Below, piece by piece: positions 5,072-45,956 of a DNA stretch of 64,000 bases (the first letter of the stretch is position 1; every line of letters starts with the position of its first letter). The translations under genes were made by a program, and so were the position numbers. The stretch lies in the NCBI RefSeq assembly GCF_030698145.1, contig NZ_JAUYNW010000085.1, positions 1 to 64,000 on the forward strand, read 5' to 3'. This stretch comes from Phenylobacterium sp. Its GTDB lineage: Bacteria > Pseudomonadota > Alphaproteobacteria > Caulobacterales > Caulobacteraceae. Below the pieces are notes generated by a model. The model saw only the letters and a list, made by a program, of their open reading frames with translations, ran no database searches and had not been told where the DNA came from.

Positions 5072-6379
5072 CTAGAGAATGAACCGCGACAAGTCCGCGT
5101 TCTTGGCCAGGTCGCCGACCCGGGCCTTCACATAGGCCGCGTCGACCGCCACCGTGTCGCCGCCGCGGTCGGAGGCGGTGTAGCTGATCTCCTCCAGCAC
5201 CTTCTCGATCACGGTCTGCAGGCGCCGGGCGCCGATGTTCTCGACGGCGTTGTTCACGGTCACGGCGGCGTCGGCCATGGCGTCGATGGCGTCCTCGGTG
5301 AAGGTCAGGGTCACGCCCTCGGTCGCCAGCAGCGCCTGGTTCTGGCGCACCAGATTGGCCTCCGGTTCGGTGAGGATGCGGCGGAAGTCGTCGCGGCTGA
5401 GCGCCTTCAGCTCCACCCGGATCGGCAGGCGGCCCTGCAGCTCGGGCAGCAGGTCCGAGGGCTTGGCCACGTGGAAGGCGCCGGAGGCGATGAACAGGAT
5501 GTGATCGGTCTTCACCGGCCCGTACTTGGTGGAGACGGTGGTGCCCTCGATCAGCGGCAGCAGGTCGCGCTGCACGCCCTCGCGGCTGACGTCGGCCCCG
5601 CCGGCGCGTTCGCGGGAGGAGGCGACCTTGTCGATCTCGTCCAGAAAGACGATGCCCTCGTTCTCGGCCAGAGCCAGGGCTTCCTGGGTCAGGGCCTCCT
5701 GGTCCAGCAGCTTGTCGCTCTCCTCGGCGATCAGCGGCGCCCAGGCGCCGGAGACGGTGGTCTTGTGGGTCTTGGTGCGGCCGCCGAAGGCCTTGCCCAT
5801 CATCTCCGACAGATTCATCACCCCCAGCGAGGCGCCGGGCTGGCCGGGGATGTCGAAGGTGGGCATGCCGCCACCGGTGTCGGCGAGGGTCAGCTCCACC
5901 TCCTTGTCGTCCAACTCATTGGCTCGCAGCTTCTTGCGGAAGCTCTCGCGGGCGGCGGTGGAGCCGGGGCCGGTGAGGGCGTCCAGCACCCGCTCCTCTG
6001 CGGCGGCCTCGGCCCGGGCGCGGACGGCGGCGCGGCGCTTGTCGCGCACCATGGCCATGGCGCTCTCCACCAGGTCGCGGACGATCTGGTCGACGTCGCG
6101 GCCGACATAGCCGACCTCGGTGAACTTGGTGGCCTCGACCTTCAGGAACGGGGCGTGGGCCAGCTTGGCCAGCCGCCGGGCGATCTCGGTCTTGCCGACG
6201 CCCGTGGGACCGATCAGCAGGATGTTCTTGGGCGTCACCTCGTCGCGCAGGTCGGCGGGCACTCGCCGACGGCGCCAGCGGTTGCGCAGGGCCACGGCCA
6301 CGGCCTTCTTGGCCTCGGCGTGGCCGACGATGAAGCGGTCCAGTTCGGAGACGATTTCGCGGGGAGAAAACTCGGTCAT
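5072..6379 (-). CDS. hslU: HslU, ATPase subunit of the HslVU protease
   Basis: This AAA+ unfoldase feeds substrates into the HslV proteolytic chamber in the cytosol. The chosen protein is 435 residues. Walker A GPTGVGKT is at 57-64, the pore-loop GYVGRD near 90, Walker B is in [10 protein letters not shown], and the C-terminal tail SRFIL is the segment that docks on HslV. The track start at 6541 adds 54 residues that do not belong to the family and lie inside the upstream gene; the ATG at 6379 gives the standard [14 protein letters not shown] start. It lies 13 bp downstream of the NTF2-like gene. Confidence 0.96.
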
Positions 6380-8665: not shown

Positions 8666-10659
8666 GCGAAGGCCTTGGCGAGGAAATCCACGGTCTTGCC
8701 GAGGATCAACTTCTCGTCCTCTTCCTCCCAACCGCCGTGGCCGGCGCCGGTGACCTCGATGTGTTCATGGCGCTTGCCGGCCGCCTTGAGGGCCGCCGCC
8801 ATGTAGGCCGATTGCCGGGGCGGCACGACGCCGTCGTCCAAGCCATGGATCAGCAGAACGGGAACCTTGACCTCCGCCGCCCGCAGGGCGGGCGAGGCAG
8901 CGATGAGCTTGGCCGATTCCGTCTTCGGGTCGCCCATCCGTTCGACCCACAGCTTGTAGACCAGAGATTCCTCTCCCTCCTCGAAGTCGCGCCGGGTCTC
9001 GGCCAGCATCTTGGGCAGGTCGCTGACGCCGGCGATGGACACGGCGGCCTTGTAGAGCTCCGGCCGCCGCACGACGCCCATCAGGGCCGCGTAGCCGCCA
9101 TAGCTCATCCCGCAGATCGCCACCTTGCCGGGGTCGGCCGCGCCGGTCGCCAACACCTGGGCGACGGCGTCCTCGACATCCTCCTGCATCCGACCGCCCC
9201 AATGACCGTGGCCGGCCTCGGTGAACGCCCGCCCATAGCCGGCGGAGCCCCGGAAGTTGGGCTGCAGGACCAGCCATCCCTGGGCCGCGAAGGCCTGGGT
9301 GAAGACATCGAACTCGACGCGGTCGCGCGCCTCCGGCCCACCGTGAGGCATGACCACCAGGGGTCGTGGCCCGGCGGCGTTCGGCTTGGTCAGGTAGGCG
9401 CGCAGCGACGCCCCGTCGCGGGTCTTCACGTCCAGGCCCTCGACCCGGGCCAGGCCCTCGGCGTTCAGCCATGGCTTGCCCAGGCCCAGGGGCTCGAACC
9501 GCGCGGCGGCGGAATCGTAGAAATAGAAGGCGGAATGCACGCCAGGCCCATCGACCCGCGCCAGGTAGCGGGTGTGGTCGCGATTGGTCTGCATCAGACG
9601 CACATTGTATTGCTTGCCGAAGAACGACTCCATTCCGCGGAAGTGAGGCGCGAACTTCGGGTCGGCGAAGACATAGGCCGTGCGGTCGTCGGTGAACTCG
9701 CCGGCGACGAAATGCCCACGATCGTCGAACAGGGCGCCTTCCATGTCGCGGCCAGGCCGCGCCGCGACGACCTCGCCGAGCGCATGGGTGCGGATATCGT
9801 AGCGTCGTATGGTCGCCGCGCCGTCCTGCGAACCCCGGGTTCGCGCAAGGAACACGCCGGCCTGTTCGGTGGGACCGACGAACTCGAAGTTCGGCCGGAA
9901 CCATTCCGAGCGCCGCACGACCTGGCGGAGCGGCTTCCATTCGGTCTCGCCCTCCGTGCGGCTGAGCACGGTGGTGATCGTTCCTCTTTCGTTGGTGTCG
10001 TAGCGAAGCACGGGCTTGCCGCCCTGGGCCGCCCAACCGGTCGTCTGGCCGCCGCCGCGTTCGAGGAACGCGGCCTCGCCGGTGTGTACGTTGAGATGAT
10101 GCAGGCTGAAGGCGGGCGCTCCGCCGTCATAGGCCATCATCATGATGCGGTCGTCGTCGTCCGGCATCAGGTCGATCAGCATGGCCAGATCGAAGTTGAC
10201 GCGTTGGAAGCGCTTCAGATCCCCGAACATCAGGACAGGATTGGACCCATCGGCGCCGATGGCCATCATCCGCCGGAACCGGCTCGTGTGCTTCCGCCCG
10301 AGGTTCGAGCCGGTCTCCCGAAATATCTCCTCGCGTTCGATGAGGAAGGAGACCAGCAGGCGCTTGTCGCTGGCCCAGGCCAGGCGGTCGACCGTGTAGT
10401 TCCCCAGCACCACCAGCTTGGGCTCGGCGCTGGGCGCGTCGGCGTCGATGAGGTGGAGGTAGGCCAGCCGTTCGCTGTCCTTGCCGCGCTGGAACATCAC
10501 GGCGATCTGCTTGCCGTTGGGCGACATGGCCGCGTCGCGGGCGAGCGGCGGCCTGATCAGGTCCTCCAGGCTCGGCGGCGGCGTGGTCGCCCGCACGGCC
10601 GTAGGCGCGACCAGGGGCAAGGCCCCGATGAGGCCCATGGCCCCTCGTCTGCTGAACAT
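8662..10659 (-). CDS. S9 family (prolyl oligopeptidase-type) peptidase, exported
   Basis: This is an alpha/beta-hydrolase serine peptidase. The N-terminus MFSRRGAMGLIGALPLVAPTAVRA looks like a signal peptide, so a periplasmic location is likely. The first ~400 residues form a degenerate beta-propeller region. The catalytic domain has the nucleophile in GMSYGGYAA (Ser519), the acid in HGLDDGVVP (Asp608 or 609) and the base in GAGHGG (His641). The 665-residue length is normal for dipeptidyl-peptidase/acylaminoacyl-peptidase-like members. It ends four bases inside the moeB-like gene. Confidence 0.92.
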   Translation of the reverse strand: MFSRRGAMGLIGALPLVAPTAVRATTPPPSLEDLIRPPLARDAAMSPNGKQIAVMFQRGKDSERLAYLHLIDADAPSAEPKLVVLGNYTVDRLAWASDKRLLVSFLIEREEIFRETGSNLGRKHTSRFRRMMAIGADGSNPVLMFGDLKRFQRVNFDLAMLIDLMPDDDDRIMMMAYDGGAPAFSLHHLNVHTGEAAFLERGGGQTTGWAAQGGKPVLRYDTNERGTITTVLSRTEGETEWKPLRQVVRRSEWFRPNFEFVGPTEQAGVFLARTRGSQDGAATIRRYDIRTHALGEVVAARPGRDMEGALFDDRGHFVAGEFTDDRTAYVFADPKFAPHFRGMESFFGKQYNVRLMQTNRDHTRYLARVDGPGVHSAFYFYDSAAARFEPLGLGKPWLNAEGLARVEGLDVKTRDGASLRAYLTKPNAAGPRPLVVMPHGGPEARDRVEFDVFTQAFAAQGWLVLQPNFRGSAGYGRAFTEAGHGHWGGRMQEDVEDAVAQVLATGAADPGKVAICGMSYGGYAALMGVVRRPELYKAAVSIAGVSDLPKMLAETRRDFEEGEESLVYKLWVERMGDPKTESAKLIAASPALRAAEVKVPVLLIHGLDDGVVPPRQSAYMAAALKAAGKRHEHIEVTGAGHGGWEEEDEKLILGKTVDFLAKAFA

Positions 10660-24034: not shown

Positions 24035-24871
24035 TCAGCGGGCCTTGAAATCGGGCGGGCGCTTCTCGAGGAACGAGGTCATCCCCTCGCGGAAGTCCTG
24101 GGTGCGGATCAGCTGCAGGAACTGCAGATAGACGTGGTGGACGTGGTCGTTGAACGTCTCGTTCATGCCCATCCGCATCAACCGCTTGGCAGACTGCACC
24201 GCCAGGGGCGCGTTGGCGGCGATCTCGGCGGCCAGTTCGCGGGCCTTGGTCTGAAGCTCGGCGTCGGGGACCACGTGGGTCGCCAGGCCCATCTCCAGGC
24301 TCTCCTGGGCCGTGAGCGTGCGGCCGGTGAAGATCAGCTCGGCGGCCTTCGACCAGCCAATCAGTCGTGGCAGGATCCAGGTGCCGCCGGACTCCGGCAC
24401 CACCCCGCGCTTGACGAAGGCCGCGGCCAGCTTGGCGCCCTGCGCCATCATGCGGATATCGCAGCCCATGGCGGTGTCCATGCCGTAGCCCGCGGCCGCG
24501 CCGTTGAGCGCGCAGATGGTCGGCTTGTCCATGGCGAACAGCACGGTGGGCGGGGTGTTGCGCAGGTCGAGATTGACCGAGACGTTGCTGGCTTGGCTCT
24601 CCGAGCCGATGCCCGTGCCCTGGGTGGCGCCCACCAGGTCCAGGCCCGCGCAGAACGCCCGGCCGGTTCCGGTCAGGATCACCACGCGCACGGCCGGATC
24701 CTCGTTGGCCTTGATCAGCAGCTCCGTCAGCAGGGCCAGCATCGGGCCGGAGATGGTGTTCAGGCGCTCGGGGCGGTTGAGGGTGATGGTGGCGATCCCG
24801 TCGGACGCCTCGTAGATCACCTCGGGGGCTTCGCGGGTCAGCTCCGCCGTCATCGTCGAAGTCTCGCTCAT
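24035..24871 (-). CDS. enoyl-CoA hydratase/isomerase (crotonase) family
   Basis: This 278-residue crotonase-fold enzyme acts on acyl-CoA thioesters, probably in beta-oxidation. Oxyanion-hole segments are AFCAGLDL and NGAAAGYG; a Glu in VVPESGGTW lies where the catalytic acid of hydratases sits, while the usual second Glu is not obvious. An AAGGGGAAGG ribosome site supports the ATG at 24871. The operon is single-gene. The exact substrate is unknown. Confidence 0.88.
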   Translation of the reverse strand: MSETSTMTAELTREAPEVIYEASDGIATITLNRPERLNTISGPMLALLTELLIKANEDPAVRVVILTGTGRAFCAGLDLVGATQGTGIGSESQASNVSVNLDLRNTPPTVLFAMDKPTICALNGAAAGYGMDTAMGCDIRMMAQGAKLAAAFVKRGVVPESGGTWILPRLIGWSKAAELIFTGRTLTAQESLEMGLATHVVPDAELQTKARELAAEIAANAPLAVQSAKRLMRMGMNETFNDHVHHVYLQFLQLIRTQDFREGMTSFLEKRPPDFKAR

Positions 24872-24936: not shown

Positions 24937-24965
24937 TTGCCGGGCGGCCGCAATCTCGGCTATAG
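24937..24965 (+). promoter_or_regulatory. candidate promoter of the leader-peptide operon
   Basis: TTGCCG and CTATAG are separated by 17 bp. The predicted start site near 24972 would give a short 5' end before the leader open frame. It lies in the divergent 364-bp gap between the crotonase gene and the first gene of the small operon. Confidence 0.4.
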
Positions 24966-24996
24966 GTCGGCTGCGAGCTTCATCATCGTGGCGGCC

Positions 24997-25128
24997 ATGA
25001 GCGCTTCCTTCGATCCCTGCCGGCAGACCCTGACGCGCCCCGCGGCGCGCGCGGCCGCCTGCGTCTCGAAAACCATGATGATTATTATGACCCCCATCAC
25101 AGGAACGGGGCGAACGCGCGCGACCTAA
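24997..25128 (+). CDS. leader peptide with Met/Ile/Thr control codons
   Basis: A 43-residue frame ends MMIIMTPITGTGRTRAT before TAA at 25126. The cluster has three Met, three Ile and five Thr in the last 17 codons, far from the Ala/Arg-rich background. It is followed 28 bases later by a terminator hairpin whose left arm (CCCCG) can pair with CGGGG inside the control region (25106-25110). This is the arrangement of amino-acid attenuators such as thr and ilv leaders. The exact start is uncertain: no strong ribosome site precedes the ATG at 24997. Confidence 0.6.
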   Translation: MSASFDPCRQTLTRPAARAAACVSKTMMIIMTPITGTGRTRAT

Positions 25129-25156
25129 AACACCGCCGACGGATCGCAAGATCAGC

Positions 25157-25190
25157 AACCCCGCTCCCTTCACAGGCAGCGGGGTTTTTT
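25157..25190 (+). terminator. attenuator terminator
   Basis: AACCCCGCT and AGCGGGGTT pair around a 12-base loop and are followed by TTTT, a classic intrinsic terminator. It sits between the leader peptide and the first structural gene, 46 bases before its ATG, so it can only work as a regulated terminator of that operon. Confidence 0.8.
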
Positions 25191-25235
25191 ATTGCGCGCC
25201 GTCGGTCCCGACATCCACCCAGAGGACCTTCAGCC

Positions 25236-25535
25236 ATGCCTTCCCAAGACCCCAACCTCTCCGATCCGCCCGACGCCGGTAACGCCGTGCGCGGCTTCGT
25301 CCGCGCGTTGGTCTCCCGGGCCCTGTTCGAACACACCGCCCGCCTGGAGGTGACGCTGGGCGGCGGCGGGGCGCTCGAGACCCTGCTGGCGGTGGAGCGG
25401 GCCCTGACCTGGCCGCCGGCCGGGCCGAGCCGCGAGCTGATCTGGGCCACCGAGGCCGGCGCCCTGCGGCTCAGCGCCTATGACGAGGCCGGCCGCCTGC
25501 TGCTGAAACGCGACTATGGTGACTCACGTGGCTGA
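25236..25535 (+). CDS. unknown small protein, first gene of the attenuated operon
   Basis: This 99-residue acidic protein shows no family I recognise, no signal peptide and no membrane span. It has an amphipathic helix (AVRGFVRALVSRALFEHTARLEV) and a strand-rich C-terminal half (RELIWATEAGALRLSAYDEAGRLLLKRDYG). AGAGGA lies 10 bases before the ATG. Its end overlaps the ACT-domain gene by 20 bp, indicating translational coupling. Its position behind an amino-acid attenuator suggests a role tied to amino-acid metabolism, but that is inference. Confidence 0.7.
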   Translation: MPSQDPNLSDPPDAGNAVRGFVRALVSRALFEHTARLEVTLGGGGALETLLAVERALTWPPAGPSRELIWATEAGALRLSAYDEAGRLLLKRDYGDSRG

Positions 25536-25842
25536 CGGGGCTGTGGCGCGACGCGTCTTCCTGATCGAAGCCCGCACAGGTCATGAAGGCCTCCTGCGAG
25601 TGCTGGGACGGCTGGCTGTGTGCGGCGTGCCCTTGATCGCACTGGAAGCCCGCGCCCGCGGCGATCTGGTCAACATTCGGGTCGAGGTGGGCGAGCTCGG
25701 GGCTGACAAGGCCGAAGCGGCGGTCGCGCGTTTAAGTTCCATCCCCGGCGTGGACATGGTCGGGCTGATCTGGCGGCCAGCGCCGTGCGAGCGCGCGACG
25801 CCGACTATGGAGCCGTCGAGGCGTCTGCTGGTGTCAGGCTGA
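25516..25842 (+). CDS. small ACT-domain protein, IlvM/IlvN-like
   Basis: This 108-residue protein fits the ACT fold order: strand RRVFLIEA, helix EGLLRVLGRLAVCG, strand PLIALEAR, strand VNIRVEVG, helix KAEAAVARLSSIPG, strand VDMVGLIW. This layout resembles the small regulatory subunits of acetolactate synthase (IlvM, IlvN), but no catalytic subunit is adjacent. It might bind an amino acid and regulate a partner encoded elsewhere. The start could be the ATG at 25516 or a nearby GTG. The last 38 bp overlap the opposing membrane-protein gene. Confidence 0.7.
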   Translation: MVTHVADGAVARRVFLIEARTGHEGLLRVLGRLAVCGVPLIALEARARGDLVNIRVEVGELGADKAEAAVARLSSIPGVDMVGLIWRPAPCERATPTMEPSRRLLVSG

Positions 25843-26530
25843 TCCTGGCGATATCGCGTTCGCCCAGTTCAGCCAGGCGACCCAGGAAGGTGCGGAGGAA
25901 GATCGCGACGGCGATCATCTCTCCGGTCTCCTCCCCGGTGACCAGGGCCAGCATCTTTGGAAGCGATTGCGAGGTTCCCACCGCCCGCTCAGCGTTCTGA
26001 ACCATCTCGAGCCCGACCGCCGAGAAGACATAGATCAACCCCCCGCTGGCCAGACCCAGGCGCACAAGCGGCTTCTGACGCAGCCAGAATCGAAAGAGCC
26101 AGACGCCAAGCGTCAAGGCGACGAGCGCATAGGGGAAGACCCCGATACTGCTGAACATTCCGGCGGTGCGGTCTCCAAAGCTGTTCAGTTTCTCGTGGAC
26201 CTGCGCGGCTTCATCGAGGGTCATGAAGCTGAATAGGGCGGCGAAGACCATCCAGGCGCGGGACTCGTCGGCGGCGAGGTTGGGGGTAGTCGCCAGGCGC
26301 CAGGCGACGAGAGCTGTCGCCAGCAAGGCGAGAGTCGCGCAGAAGGTCGGGAGATTGGACTCAAAAGCCATTCGGAAGAATTGGCTCGGCTCTCCGGCCC
26401 CGTCCGCCAGCGCCGTCACGACATTCGCGACGGCGAGCGCGAGTATGAGCAGCAGGTGCCAAGCGAACAGACGTCGGGCGGAAATGGTCCAGAGCAATCG
26501 CGTCATCGTCCACAATCTTGGCGAGAGCAT
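25805..26530 (-). CDS. polytopic membrane protein of unknown function
   Basis: This 241-residue protein has about six predicted spans. Acidic and histidine residues sit at the edges of hydrophobic segments: FSFMTLDEAAQVHEKL and LVTGEETGEMIAVAIFLRTF. A recurring DE-x5-HE and EE-x2-EM arrangement is seen in several uncharacterised bacterial membrane proteins and could bind metal, but I know no proven function. The start may be the ATG at 26530 or the one nine codons later. Its end overlaps the convergent ACT gene by 38 bp. Confidence 0.7.
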   Translation of the reverse strand: MLSPRLWTMTRLLWTISARRLFAWHLLLILALAVANVVTALADGAGEPSQFFRMAFESNLPTFCATLALLATALVAWRLATTPNLAADESRAWMVFAALFSFMTLDEAAQVHEKLNSFGDRTAGMFSSIGVFPYALVALTLGVWLFRFWLRQKPLVRLGLASGGLIYVFSAVGLEMVQNAERAVGTSQSLPKMLALVTGEETGEMIAVAIFLRTFLGRLAELGERDIARISLTPADASTAP

Positions 26531-44183: not shown

Positions 44184-44342
44184 ACACGCTGCGAGCGCGC
44201 CGCATTGACTGGCGCGGGCGTCGGGCCTATGCCGCCGCCATTCCGCGTGACTGGCGAATGAAGGTGGGCGACCACCGGGGAGCGCGGGATCTCATATGCC
44301 GCTCGCCTGGGCAATTTCCTTGAAACGCATCAGGAGACTGCC

Positions 44343-45956
44343 GTGCCCGCCGCGCCGAATTTCCCGCCCGCCCCCGACCGTGTCGCGCCCAAGCGCGCCC
44401 TGATCTCGGTCTCCGACAAGACCGGCCTGGTCGAGGCCGCCAAGCTCCTGGCCGAGCTTGGCGTCGAGCTGGTCTCCACGGGCGGCACCCGCGCCGCCAT
44501 CGCCGCGGCCGGCCTGGCGGTGAAGGACGTGTCCGACCTCACCGGCTTCCCGGAGATGATGGACGGGCGGGTGAAGACCCTGCACCCCATCGTGCATGGC
44601 GGGCTGCTGGGGGTCCGCGACGCGCCCGACCACGCCAAGGCCATGGCCGACCACGGCATCGGCGCCATCGATATCGTCTACGTGAACCTCTACCCGTTCG
44701 AAGCCACGGTGGCGAAGGGCGGGAGCTTCGAGGACTGCGTCGAGAACATCGACATCGGCGGCCCGGCCATGGTGCGCTCGGCGGCCAAGAACCACGGCTA
44801 TGTGGCCATCTGCACCGAGATCGCCGACCTGGAAGAGGTGCTGGCGGAGCTGAAGGTGGACGGCGCCACGAGCCTCGAGTTGCGCAAGAAGCTGGCGGCG
44901 CGGGCCTATGCCCGGACCGCGGCCTATGACGCGGCGATCTCGGCCTGGTTCGTCAGGTCGCTGGGCGAGATCGCGCCGGCGCGACGCGCCTTCGCCGGCA
45001 AGCTGGTCCAGACCATGCGCTATGGCGAGAACCCGCATCAGGCCGCGGCCTTCTACGCCGAGGAGACCCCGCGCATCGGCGTCGCCACCGCCCGCCAGAT
45101 GCAGGGCAAGGCGCTCAGCTATAACAACATCGCCGACACCGACGCCGCCCTGGAGCTGGTGGCCGAGTTCGATCCCGCGGCGGGCGCCGCCGTGGCCATC
45201 ATCAAGCACGCCAATCCCTGCGGCGTGGCGCTGGGTCCGGACCTGAAGAGCGCCTATGAGCGCGCCCTGCAGTGCGACCCGGTCTCAGCCTTCGGCGGGA
45301 TCGTGGCGGTGAACCACCGACTGGACGCCGCCGCGGCCCGCGAGATCATCAAGATCTTCACCGAGGTGGTCGTCGCCCCCGAGGCCGACGAGGACGCCAT
45401 CGCCCTGTTCGCCAAGAAGAAGGACCTGCGCCTGCTGCTGACCGGCGGCCTGCCCGATCCGCGCGCGGCGGGTGACGCCTACAAGCAGGTGGCCGGCGGC
45501 TTCCTCGTGCAGAGCCGCGACACCGCCCACATCACGGCCGCCGACCTGAAGATCGTCACCAAGCGCCAGCCGACGCCGAGCGAGATCGCCGACATGCTGT
45601 TCGCCTTCACGGTGGCCAAGCACGTGAAGTCCAACGCCATCGTCTACGCCAAGGACGGCCAGACGGCGGGGATCGGCGCCGGCCAGATGAACCGCAAGGA
45701 CTCGGCCCGGATCGCGGCGTTGCGGGCGGGCGAGGCCGCGGAGGCCGCGGGCCTGCCGGCGTCGCTGGCCAAGGGTTCAGCCTGCGCCTCGGACGCCTTC
45801 TTCCCGTTCGCCGACGGCCTGCTGCAGGCGGCGGAGGCCGGGGCCACGGCGGTGATCCAGCCGGGCGGCTCGATCCGCGACCAGGAGGTGATCGACGCCG
45901 CCGACGCCGCGGGTCTGGCCATGGCCTTCACCGGCGTGCGGGTGTTCAGACACTAG
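44343..45956 (+). CDS. purH: PurH, AICAR transformylase/IMP cyclohydrolase
   Basis: It catalyses the last two steps of IMP synthesis. The 537-residue protein has the N-terminal cyclohydrolase domain ([44 protein letters not shown]). The C-terminal transformylase domain has [34 protein letters not shown] and a final [11 protein letters not shown]. The start is GTG (44343) with AGGAG upstream. An AT-rich hairpin lies after the stop. Confidence 0.97.

Follow-up and report, generated by a model that had tools for sequence, protein, structure and literature searches.

Attenuators that sense amino acids mostly switch enzymes, transporters or tRNA synthetases. In the stretch of Phenylobacterium sp. 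DNA analysed here (contig NZ_JAUYNW010000085.1, 64,000 nt, hereafter the window), an attenuator-like leader stands in front of two very small genes, raising the question of which amino acid it reads and what its output could regulate. A first-pass annotation, made from the sequence alone, had proposed a leader peptide with Met/Ile/Thr control codons upstream of an unknown 99-aa protein and a 108-aa IlvM-like ACT protein.

Organization of the locus

Direct reading of the DNA located all of the following elements in the window.

24960-24967, + strand: probable -10 box (CTATAGGT) of the leader promoter, a TATAG-type box found at the same place in relatives
24997-25128, + strand: leader peptide ORF, 43 aa, ending MMIIMTPITGTGRTRAT; an in-frame ORF lies upstream of 63/63 homologous loci
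25075-25092, + strand: control codons ATG ATG ATT ATT ATG ACC (Met Met Ile Ile Met Thr)
25101-25112, + strand: antiterminator 5' arm AGGAACGGGGCG, within the end of the leader ORF, pairing with the terminator 5' arm
25136-25142, + strand: outer helix 5' arm CCGACGG, partner at 25199-25205
25142-25153, + strand: small hairpin GATC-GCAA-GATC, 3' of the leader stop and 5' of the terminator; across 36 sequences, 96.5% of its cells are paired
25157-25190, + strand: intrinsic terminator AACCCCGCT / AGCGGGGTT plus T run (TTTT)
25199-25205, + strand: outer helix 3' arm CCGTCGG, present only in read-through RNA
25221-25228, + strand: ribosome-binding site AGAGGACC of gene 1, by direct reading
25236-25535, + strand: gene 1, 99-aa truncated ASB-like domain protein, from profile and fold matches to L-serine dehydratase
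25528-25842, + strand: gene 2, stand-alone ACT-domain protein, from predicted structure, fold matches and Pfam ACT_5 in relatives

The end of the leader frame, the terminator starting exactly 28 nt after the leader stop, and its TTTT run all lie where the first-pass annotation had put them, as does the antiterminator pairing it had proposed, in which CGGGG (25106-25110) is complementary to CCCCG (25159-25163). A simple terminator scan missed the terminator hairpin because the scan was limited to an 8-base loop. The leader peptide, MSASFDPCRQTLTRPAARAAACVSKTMMIIMTPITGTGRTRAT (43 aa), runs from ATG 24997 to a TAA stop at 25126-25128; its frame had initially been opened at TTG 24937, but the ATG, which is conserved in relatives, is the likely start. 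A TATAG-type box often lies 8-11 nt 5' of the leader ATG in relatives, and the -10 at 24960-24967 was absent from a promoter consensus scan. For gene 2 the most likely start is GTG 25528, which gives 104 codons and an overlap with the stop of gene 1; ATG 25516 is the alternative.

The upstream neighbor, an enoyl-CoA hydratase gene (24035-24871), and the downstream neighbor (25805-26530) are both on the opposite strand, so the operon consists of the two genes. Co-transcription with a downstream MHYT-GGDEF-EAL gene was rejected, as gene order differs among relatives. The absence of any biosynthetic enzyme, pointed out in the first-pass annotation, holds both here and at the ACT-pair loci of relatives. 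Another occurrence of the antiterminator arm sequence, at 6144, lies in coding sequence and was dismissed as a chance match. Elsewhere in the window, a ZMP/ZTP riboswitch (44237-44319, Rfam 66.6 bits) lies just 5' of a purH-like gene (44343-45956), an expected pairing.

Distribution and conservation of the RNA architecture

A protein search found gene 2 in 11 of 60 relatives, and a profile search found it in 80 of 249 Caulobacteraceae genomes. These come from 8 of 22 genera, and almost all genomes of one large genus (probably Caulobacter) are among them. A scan of the genome collection with gene 2 itself as query returned no relatives; with gene 1 as query, the nearest named matches were Phenylobacterium records. 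One congener (G025) has two diverged copies (L013, L010) of the whole attenuator-gene 1-gene 2 unit.

We examined 63 homologous loci in Caulobacteraceae, reduced them to 52 non-redundant loci for pairing and codon tests, and scored helix covariation on a 36-sequence alignment. Each of the 63 loci has a leader ORF, then a terminator 48-74 nt past the leader stop, then the small-gene operon; the terminator of L008, which has a C-to-T change in the stem, was added by hand. Comparing the leader codons and the terminator among relatives, as the first-pass annotation had suggested, found both kept in at least eight genera. The terminator folds in 52/52 non-redundant loci, with 96.9% of cells paired in the 36 sequences, and its closing pair has undergone double changes from A-U to G-C. 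Pairing of the antiterminator exceeded that of shuffled leader ends in 52/52 loci and that of swapped partners in 39/52, and it fell to about half when the partner was shifted by 1-3 columns. Both sides of the antiterminator changed at 2 of 9 pairs, with seven cells changed on both sides against 2.2 in shuffles; an example is a G-C to A-U double change where the arm reads GAAGCGGGGC against GCCCCGCTTC. The presence of leader, arm and terminator 5' of all 63 loci, the pairing above shuffled levels and the compensatory changes together show that this arrangement did not arise by chance.

The outer helix (CCGACGG/CCGTCGG) paired better than with a shuffled partner in 50/52 loci and better than with a swapped one in 45/52, and is backed by compensatory changes such as CCGGCGG/CCGCCGG in L007. 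Its 3' arm overlaps GGTCC, which is complementary to the gene 1 Shine-Dalgarno AGGACC, so the helix could possibly add a second, translational layer of control. A 1:2 pause hairpin is predicted in the minimum-energy fold of the window element, its upstream GC-rich partner being variable between relatives; no conserved segment-1 partner emerged for it, a point against the attenuator reading. Conservation of the leader peptide extends beyond the control codons to its upstream half. No Rfam family matched above its gathering threshold at the element or at 18 related loci; at 25081-25187 there is a sub-threshold match to the Pseudomonas sRNA P9 (21.3 bits, cut-off 43).

Control codons and the amino acid signal

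Codons were counted in each non-redundant leader over a stall window that spans 12-32 nt 5' of the CGGGG core. Ile was present in 52/52 stall windows, Thr in 49/52, Met in 35/52 and Lys in 30/52. The Ile codon was nearly always ATT, which is otherwise rare: it made up 20.6% of stall-window codons but 0.2% of codons in the background genes of these genomes, a ~100-fold enrichment. From the Ile codons to the antiterminator arm downstream the distance is 17-20 nt, a spacing like that of the Trp codons in trpL.

Isoleucine is most likely the signal, as judged from the leader sequences, because Ile occurs in every stall window and Met in only 35 of 52. Of the Met/Ile/Thr control originally proposed, the Ile part is the one shared by all the leaders; methionine was not universal and was rejected as the main signal. 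Counting against the isoleucine reading, many Caulobacter-like leaders have QIKT at this place, with a single Ile codon and no run. Apart from CAG and CCC, every strongly enriched control codon begins with A and codes for an amino acid of the aspartate family, so a general reading of that family, or selection for an A-rich stretch free of structure, is a less likely alternative.

Products of the two genes

The 99-aa product of gene 1, previously called unknown, can be assigned on profile and fold evidence as a truncated ASB (allosteric) domain of L-serine dehydratase. Its profile matched L-serine dehydratase chains 2IAF, 2IQQ and 4RQO in the PDB (E 2.7e-5 to 6.6e-4, 2IAF being the 2.7e-5 match), Pfam SDH_beta matched 5 of 19 relatives (E down to 1e-4), and the four best fold matches of the gene 1 model were all L-serine dehydratase. 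By eye, its N-terminal helix-strand and C-terminal 'IWA..LxAFDxxGxxLL' strands resemble a family member's full-length serine dehydratase, with weak support from single-pair BLAST (E 0.002 and 0.11). The window protein alone reached no Pfam or NCBIfam cut-off, and it is without the middle of the ASB domain and the conserved GPSSSHT ligand loop, having a DPASAG-like sequence instead. Presence of L-serine dehydratase does not track presence of the operon. A kinship of gene 1 with the ACT protein of gene 2 was rejected (hhalign E 0.32). Caulobacter-like loci are the exception: their gene 1 does encode a second ACT protein, related to gene 2 with an hhalign E of 1e-11.

Gene 2, judged by its profile and predicted structure, encodes a stand-alone ACT protein whose nearest relation, a remote one, is the small subunit of acetolactate synthase. 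The best PDB match of its profile is E. coli IlvH (2F1F, E 0.0019); its AlphaFold2 model (pLDDT 84) has the beta-alpha-beta-beta-alpha-beta ACT fold, with Rel ACT and IlvN structures as fold matches; and Pfam ACT_5 matched 12 of 25 relatives (best relative E 6e-4). The window protein alone matched no Pfam (including ACT_5) or NCBIfam model over cut-off. The IlvM-like label given in the first-pass annotation therefore stands as a remote relation, but its length of 108 aa gives way to 104 codons from the likely GTG start. No acetolactate synthase catalytic-subunit gene adjoins gene 2 in the loci examined; ilvB and ilvN are elsewhere in the genome.

Both genes are under purifying selection, with dN/dS of 0.07-0.33 in congeneric pairs when the window's own gene 2 is excluded. 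Gene 1 has a dN/dS of 0.24, and the window's own gene 2 has 0.56. This gene 2 is ~41% identical to that of the congener L009, although the L009 gene 1 is 89% identical, and at L255 gene 1 is 95% identical over the best segment, yet it is accompanied by an L009-like gene 2. Gene 2 thus seems, from these comparisons, to have been replaced or to be fast-evolving in the window genome.

Sibling leaders in other genomes

A class-wide search found relatives of gene 2 in 42 of 385 alphaproteobacterial genomes (profile-profile hhalign E 2e-17). Most of these are preceded by a short leader ORF with the motif GCGAATTANNNNCCCGG (R-I-[TSI]-x-P), whose Ile-bearing part includes CGA ATT A[GC]C. A scan of 372 genomes for GCGAATTANNNNCCCGG gave ~110 matches against ~9 in the reversed control. 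Of 30 motif loci that were read, 14 lie directly before ileS and 10 before an ACT gene; ileS follows next after two of these ten ACT genes, and citramalate synthase after one. The ileS gene of the window genome is also preceded by such a leader, MTSVRKTSRIIRPA. From its sequence, the R-I-[TSI]-x-P motif of these loci (L134-L163) probably defines a distinct isoleucine leader family. The ileS leader motif occurs across Alphaproteobacteria with a CCCGG/CCGGG hairpin and has no Rfam match. In three genomes of one genus (L155-L157) the Ile leader motif precedes a conserved ~170-aa protein, one member of which had no NCBIfam match. Three motif matches (L140, L141, L154) were rejected as lying within coding sequence or being unrelated.

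A covariance model built from the attenuator and searched within Caulobacteraceae found the same architecture before other genes in relatives. One is asd, with the leader MLATMTMIIRKTT... (MTMIIRKTT); the others are an ASB-like gene followed by ilvE (leader ..LVLVIMPAP..), a lone ASB-like gene (..LLLTVLIT..) and, in another genus, ilvD (..LILTVLIGLL..). The differences among the asd, ilvE, ilvD and ASB leaders indicate that the control codons follow the regulated pathway and the RNA stays alike. The asd case (L222, G263) is in a Phenylobacterium genome, where the attenuator-like leader MLATMTMIIRKTTRLGGASAGARG precedes the aspartate-semialdehyde dehydrogenase gene. Caulobacter-like genomes have extra attenuator copies with Leu/Val/Ile leaders before lone ASB-like genes (L205-L210), and in three of these genomes the ASB-like gene is directly 5' of ilvE. 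Matches L215-L218, L223 and L224 were rejected as ordinary terminators after genes. On this sequence evidence, the operon is one member of a wider isoleucine/branched-chain set, to which ileS, asd, ilvD and ilvE belong in relatives.

In the window genome, ilvB is preceded by a separate classical leader (..REILVLPVRPVAA). Its ilvB (8796-10487) and ilvN (~2067-2255) are ~6.5 kb apart on the same contig (L110 and L174; G000:C73), and another gene follows ilvB instead of the usual adjacent ilvBN pair.

Proposed mechanism and alternative explanations

What the sequences show directly is the set of parts, how these are conserved and covary, the folds, and which genes keep company with the relatives. 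From this we infer, with reasonable confidence, a ribosome-mediated attenuator that senses isoleucine before a two-gene operon of free-standing, allosteric-type domains, which likely re-tune an enzyme of the branched-chain or aspartate family. The primary input would be charged tRNA-Ile; Thr, and perhaps Met, would contribute secondarily. With ample isoleucine, the ribosome would pass ATT-ATT and reach the stop, the terminator would form and a short RNA would result. When isoleucine is short, the ribosome would stall ~17-20 nt upstream of the AGGAACGGGGCG arm, which would then pair with the terminator 5' arm and let RNA polymerase enter the operon. The output would be the truncated ASB-like protein and the ACT protein, probably co-produced because their genes overlap, and these would most likely act in trans as regulatory subunits for an isoleucine/branched-chain or aspartate-family enzyme during starvation.

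Acetolactate synthase heads the candidate targets, although any specific choice is a guess. In the Caulobacteraceae loci examined the ACT-pair operon has no linked enzyme, so the choice of protein target rests on gene company elsewhere. Speculatively, an IlvM-like subunit made only at isoleucine shortage could relieve valine inhibition of acetolactate synthase, but we hold this particular target to be more doubtful than likely. A broader and still tentative possibility is an isoleucine-starvation regulon in Alphaproteobacteria, in which attenuators release ACT and truncated ASB proteins as exchangeable trans subunits, for instance replacing IlvN on acetolactate synthase, so that isoleucine is made despite excess valine; if so, starvation would be answered via enzyme allostery, not enzyme amount. 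The resident IlvN, together with an IlvA of the ACT-bearing family, counts against the trans-regulatory model. We rejected the pair as a replacement for a missing IlvN, which is present in the genome, and for a missing IlvA regulatory domain, since the genome's IlvA matches the full-length threonine ammonia-lyase models TIGR01127 and NF005600, which we take to include the C-terminal ACT domain.

As an alternative to isoleucine as the main input, the attenuator could read methionine, threonine or the aspartate family as a whole (Met, Thr, Ile, Lys, Asn). Three Met codons and one Thr codon lie in or next to the window stall site, Met, Thr and Lys recur in the stall windows at the frequencies given above, and this architecture also stands before asd (leader MTMIIRKTT), the step that Lys, Thr, Met and Ile synthesis have in common. 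Nevertheless, only Ile is universal, the leaders of gene 2 relatives outside Caulobacteraceae retain Ile and not Met, and the Ile leader motif is common to ileS, making this reading unlikely. Another thought is that the leader itself is the main product, a short terminated RNA or 43-aa peptide acting in trans, with the two genes secondary. Attenuator RNAs and leader peptides with trans roles are known in Alphaproteobacteria, such as Sinorhizobium rnTrpL/peTrpL (PMC7298713, PMC10117765), and this precedent and the conserved upstream half of the leader peptide speak for such a role. We regard it as very unlikely given that a small-gene operon under purifying selection adjoins the element at 63 loci, and that the constraints on control codons and antiterminator are cis features.

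The small proteins might also be non-functional leftovers of L-serine dehydratase and the acetolactate synthase small subunit under a still-working attenuator, as the incomplete ASB domain of gene 1, missing its GPSSSHT loop and middle, and the divergence of the window's gene 2 relative to its gene 1 would allow. The low dN/dS in other congeneric pairs, retention of the pair in nearly all members of one large genus, and retention with an isoleucine leader across other alphaproteobacterial families make decay highly improbable. GC-rich DNA often has short ORFs, and the element might be no more than an ordinary terminator separating unrelated transcription units, with an open frame there by chance, but conservation, covariation and codon enrichment over the 52 non-redundant loci refute this explanation, leaving it a negligible probability.

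Comparison with known systems

The attenuator device is of a known kind; what is new is its output and the family of sibling attenuators. The operon is not described in the literature we could search, which mostly excluded subscription papers. Like the E. coli thr, ilvGMEDA and trp attenuators (thrL/ilvL/trpL), the element has control codons in a leader, mutually exclusive antiterminator and terminator, and codons ~15-20 nt before the arm. In contrast to these systems, its control codons are few and its Ile codon is nearly always ATT, it adds a conserved GATC hairpin and an outer helix restricted to read-through RNA, and what it controls are two free-standing regulatory-domain proteins, not biosynthetic enzymes. 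The Caulobacter ilvBN attenuator, as cited in PMC4117421, shares the organism family, a branched-chain signal and an intrinsic terminator, and such a leader precedes ilvB in the window genome; it differs in its leader (..REILVLPV..), its RNA sequence and its control of an enzyme. An ilvB leader is also mentioned in PMC1273637.

Leaders of tRNA synthetase genes, such as the Caulobacter ileS leader CDS CCNA_03934 (PMC4117421) and the cysS leader uORFC-8-2 in Rhodobacterales (PMC8632094), are alike in being starvation-sensing leaders before a gene of the same amino acid, and the ileS leader motif is common to gene 2 relatives outside Caulobacteraceae. The window element differs in being a terminator-type attenuator of other sequence that stands before ASB/ACT genes. 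Gene 2 resembles IlvM/IlvN in its ACT fold, its IlvM size and its best PDB sequence match, but it is very divergent, has no adjoining catalytic-subunit gene and coexists with a separate IlvN. Gene 1 matches the N-terminal helix-strand and resembles the C-terminal strands of the ASB domain of Fe-S L-serine dehydratase (PF03315). ASB and ACT domains in succession form a known regulatory pair in type I PGDH (PMC6300728), whereas in the window the two are separate polypeptides with no catalytic domain, and the middle segment and GPSSSHT loop are missing.

Compared to these systems, the same device here switches small proteins resembling detached sensor domains at 63 loci in 8 genera, and a related Ile-codon leader occurs in other alphaproteobacterial families. 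If the proteins act on enzymes in trans, a translation-based starvation signal would be linked to allosteric control, pointing to a little-studied re-tuning of amino acid synthesis during starvation, and the Caulobacter-like version falls in a genetically tractable group.
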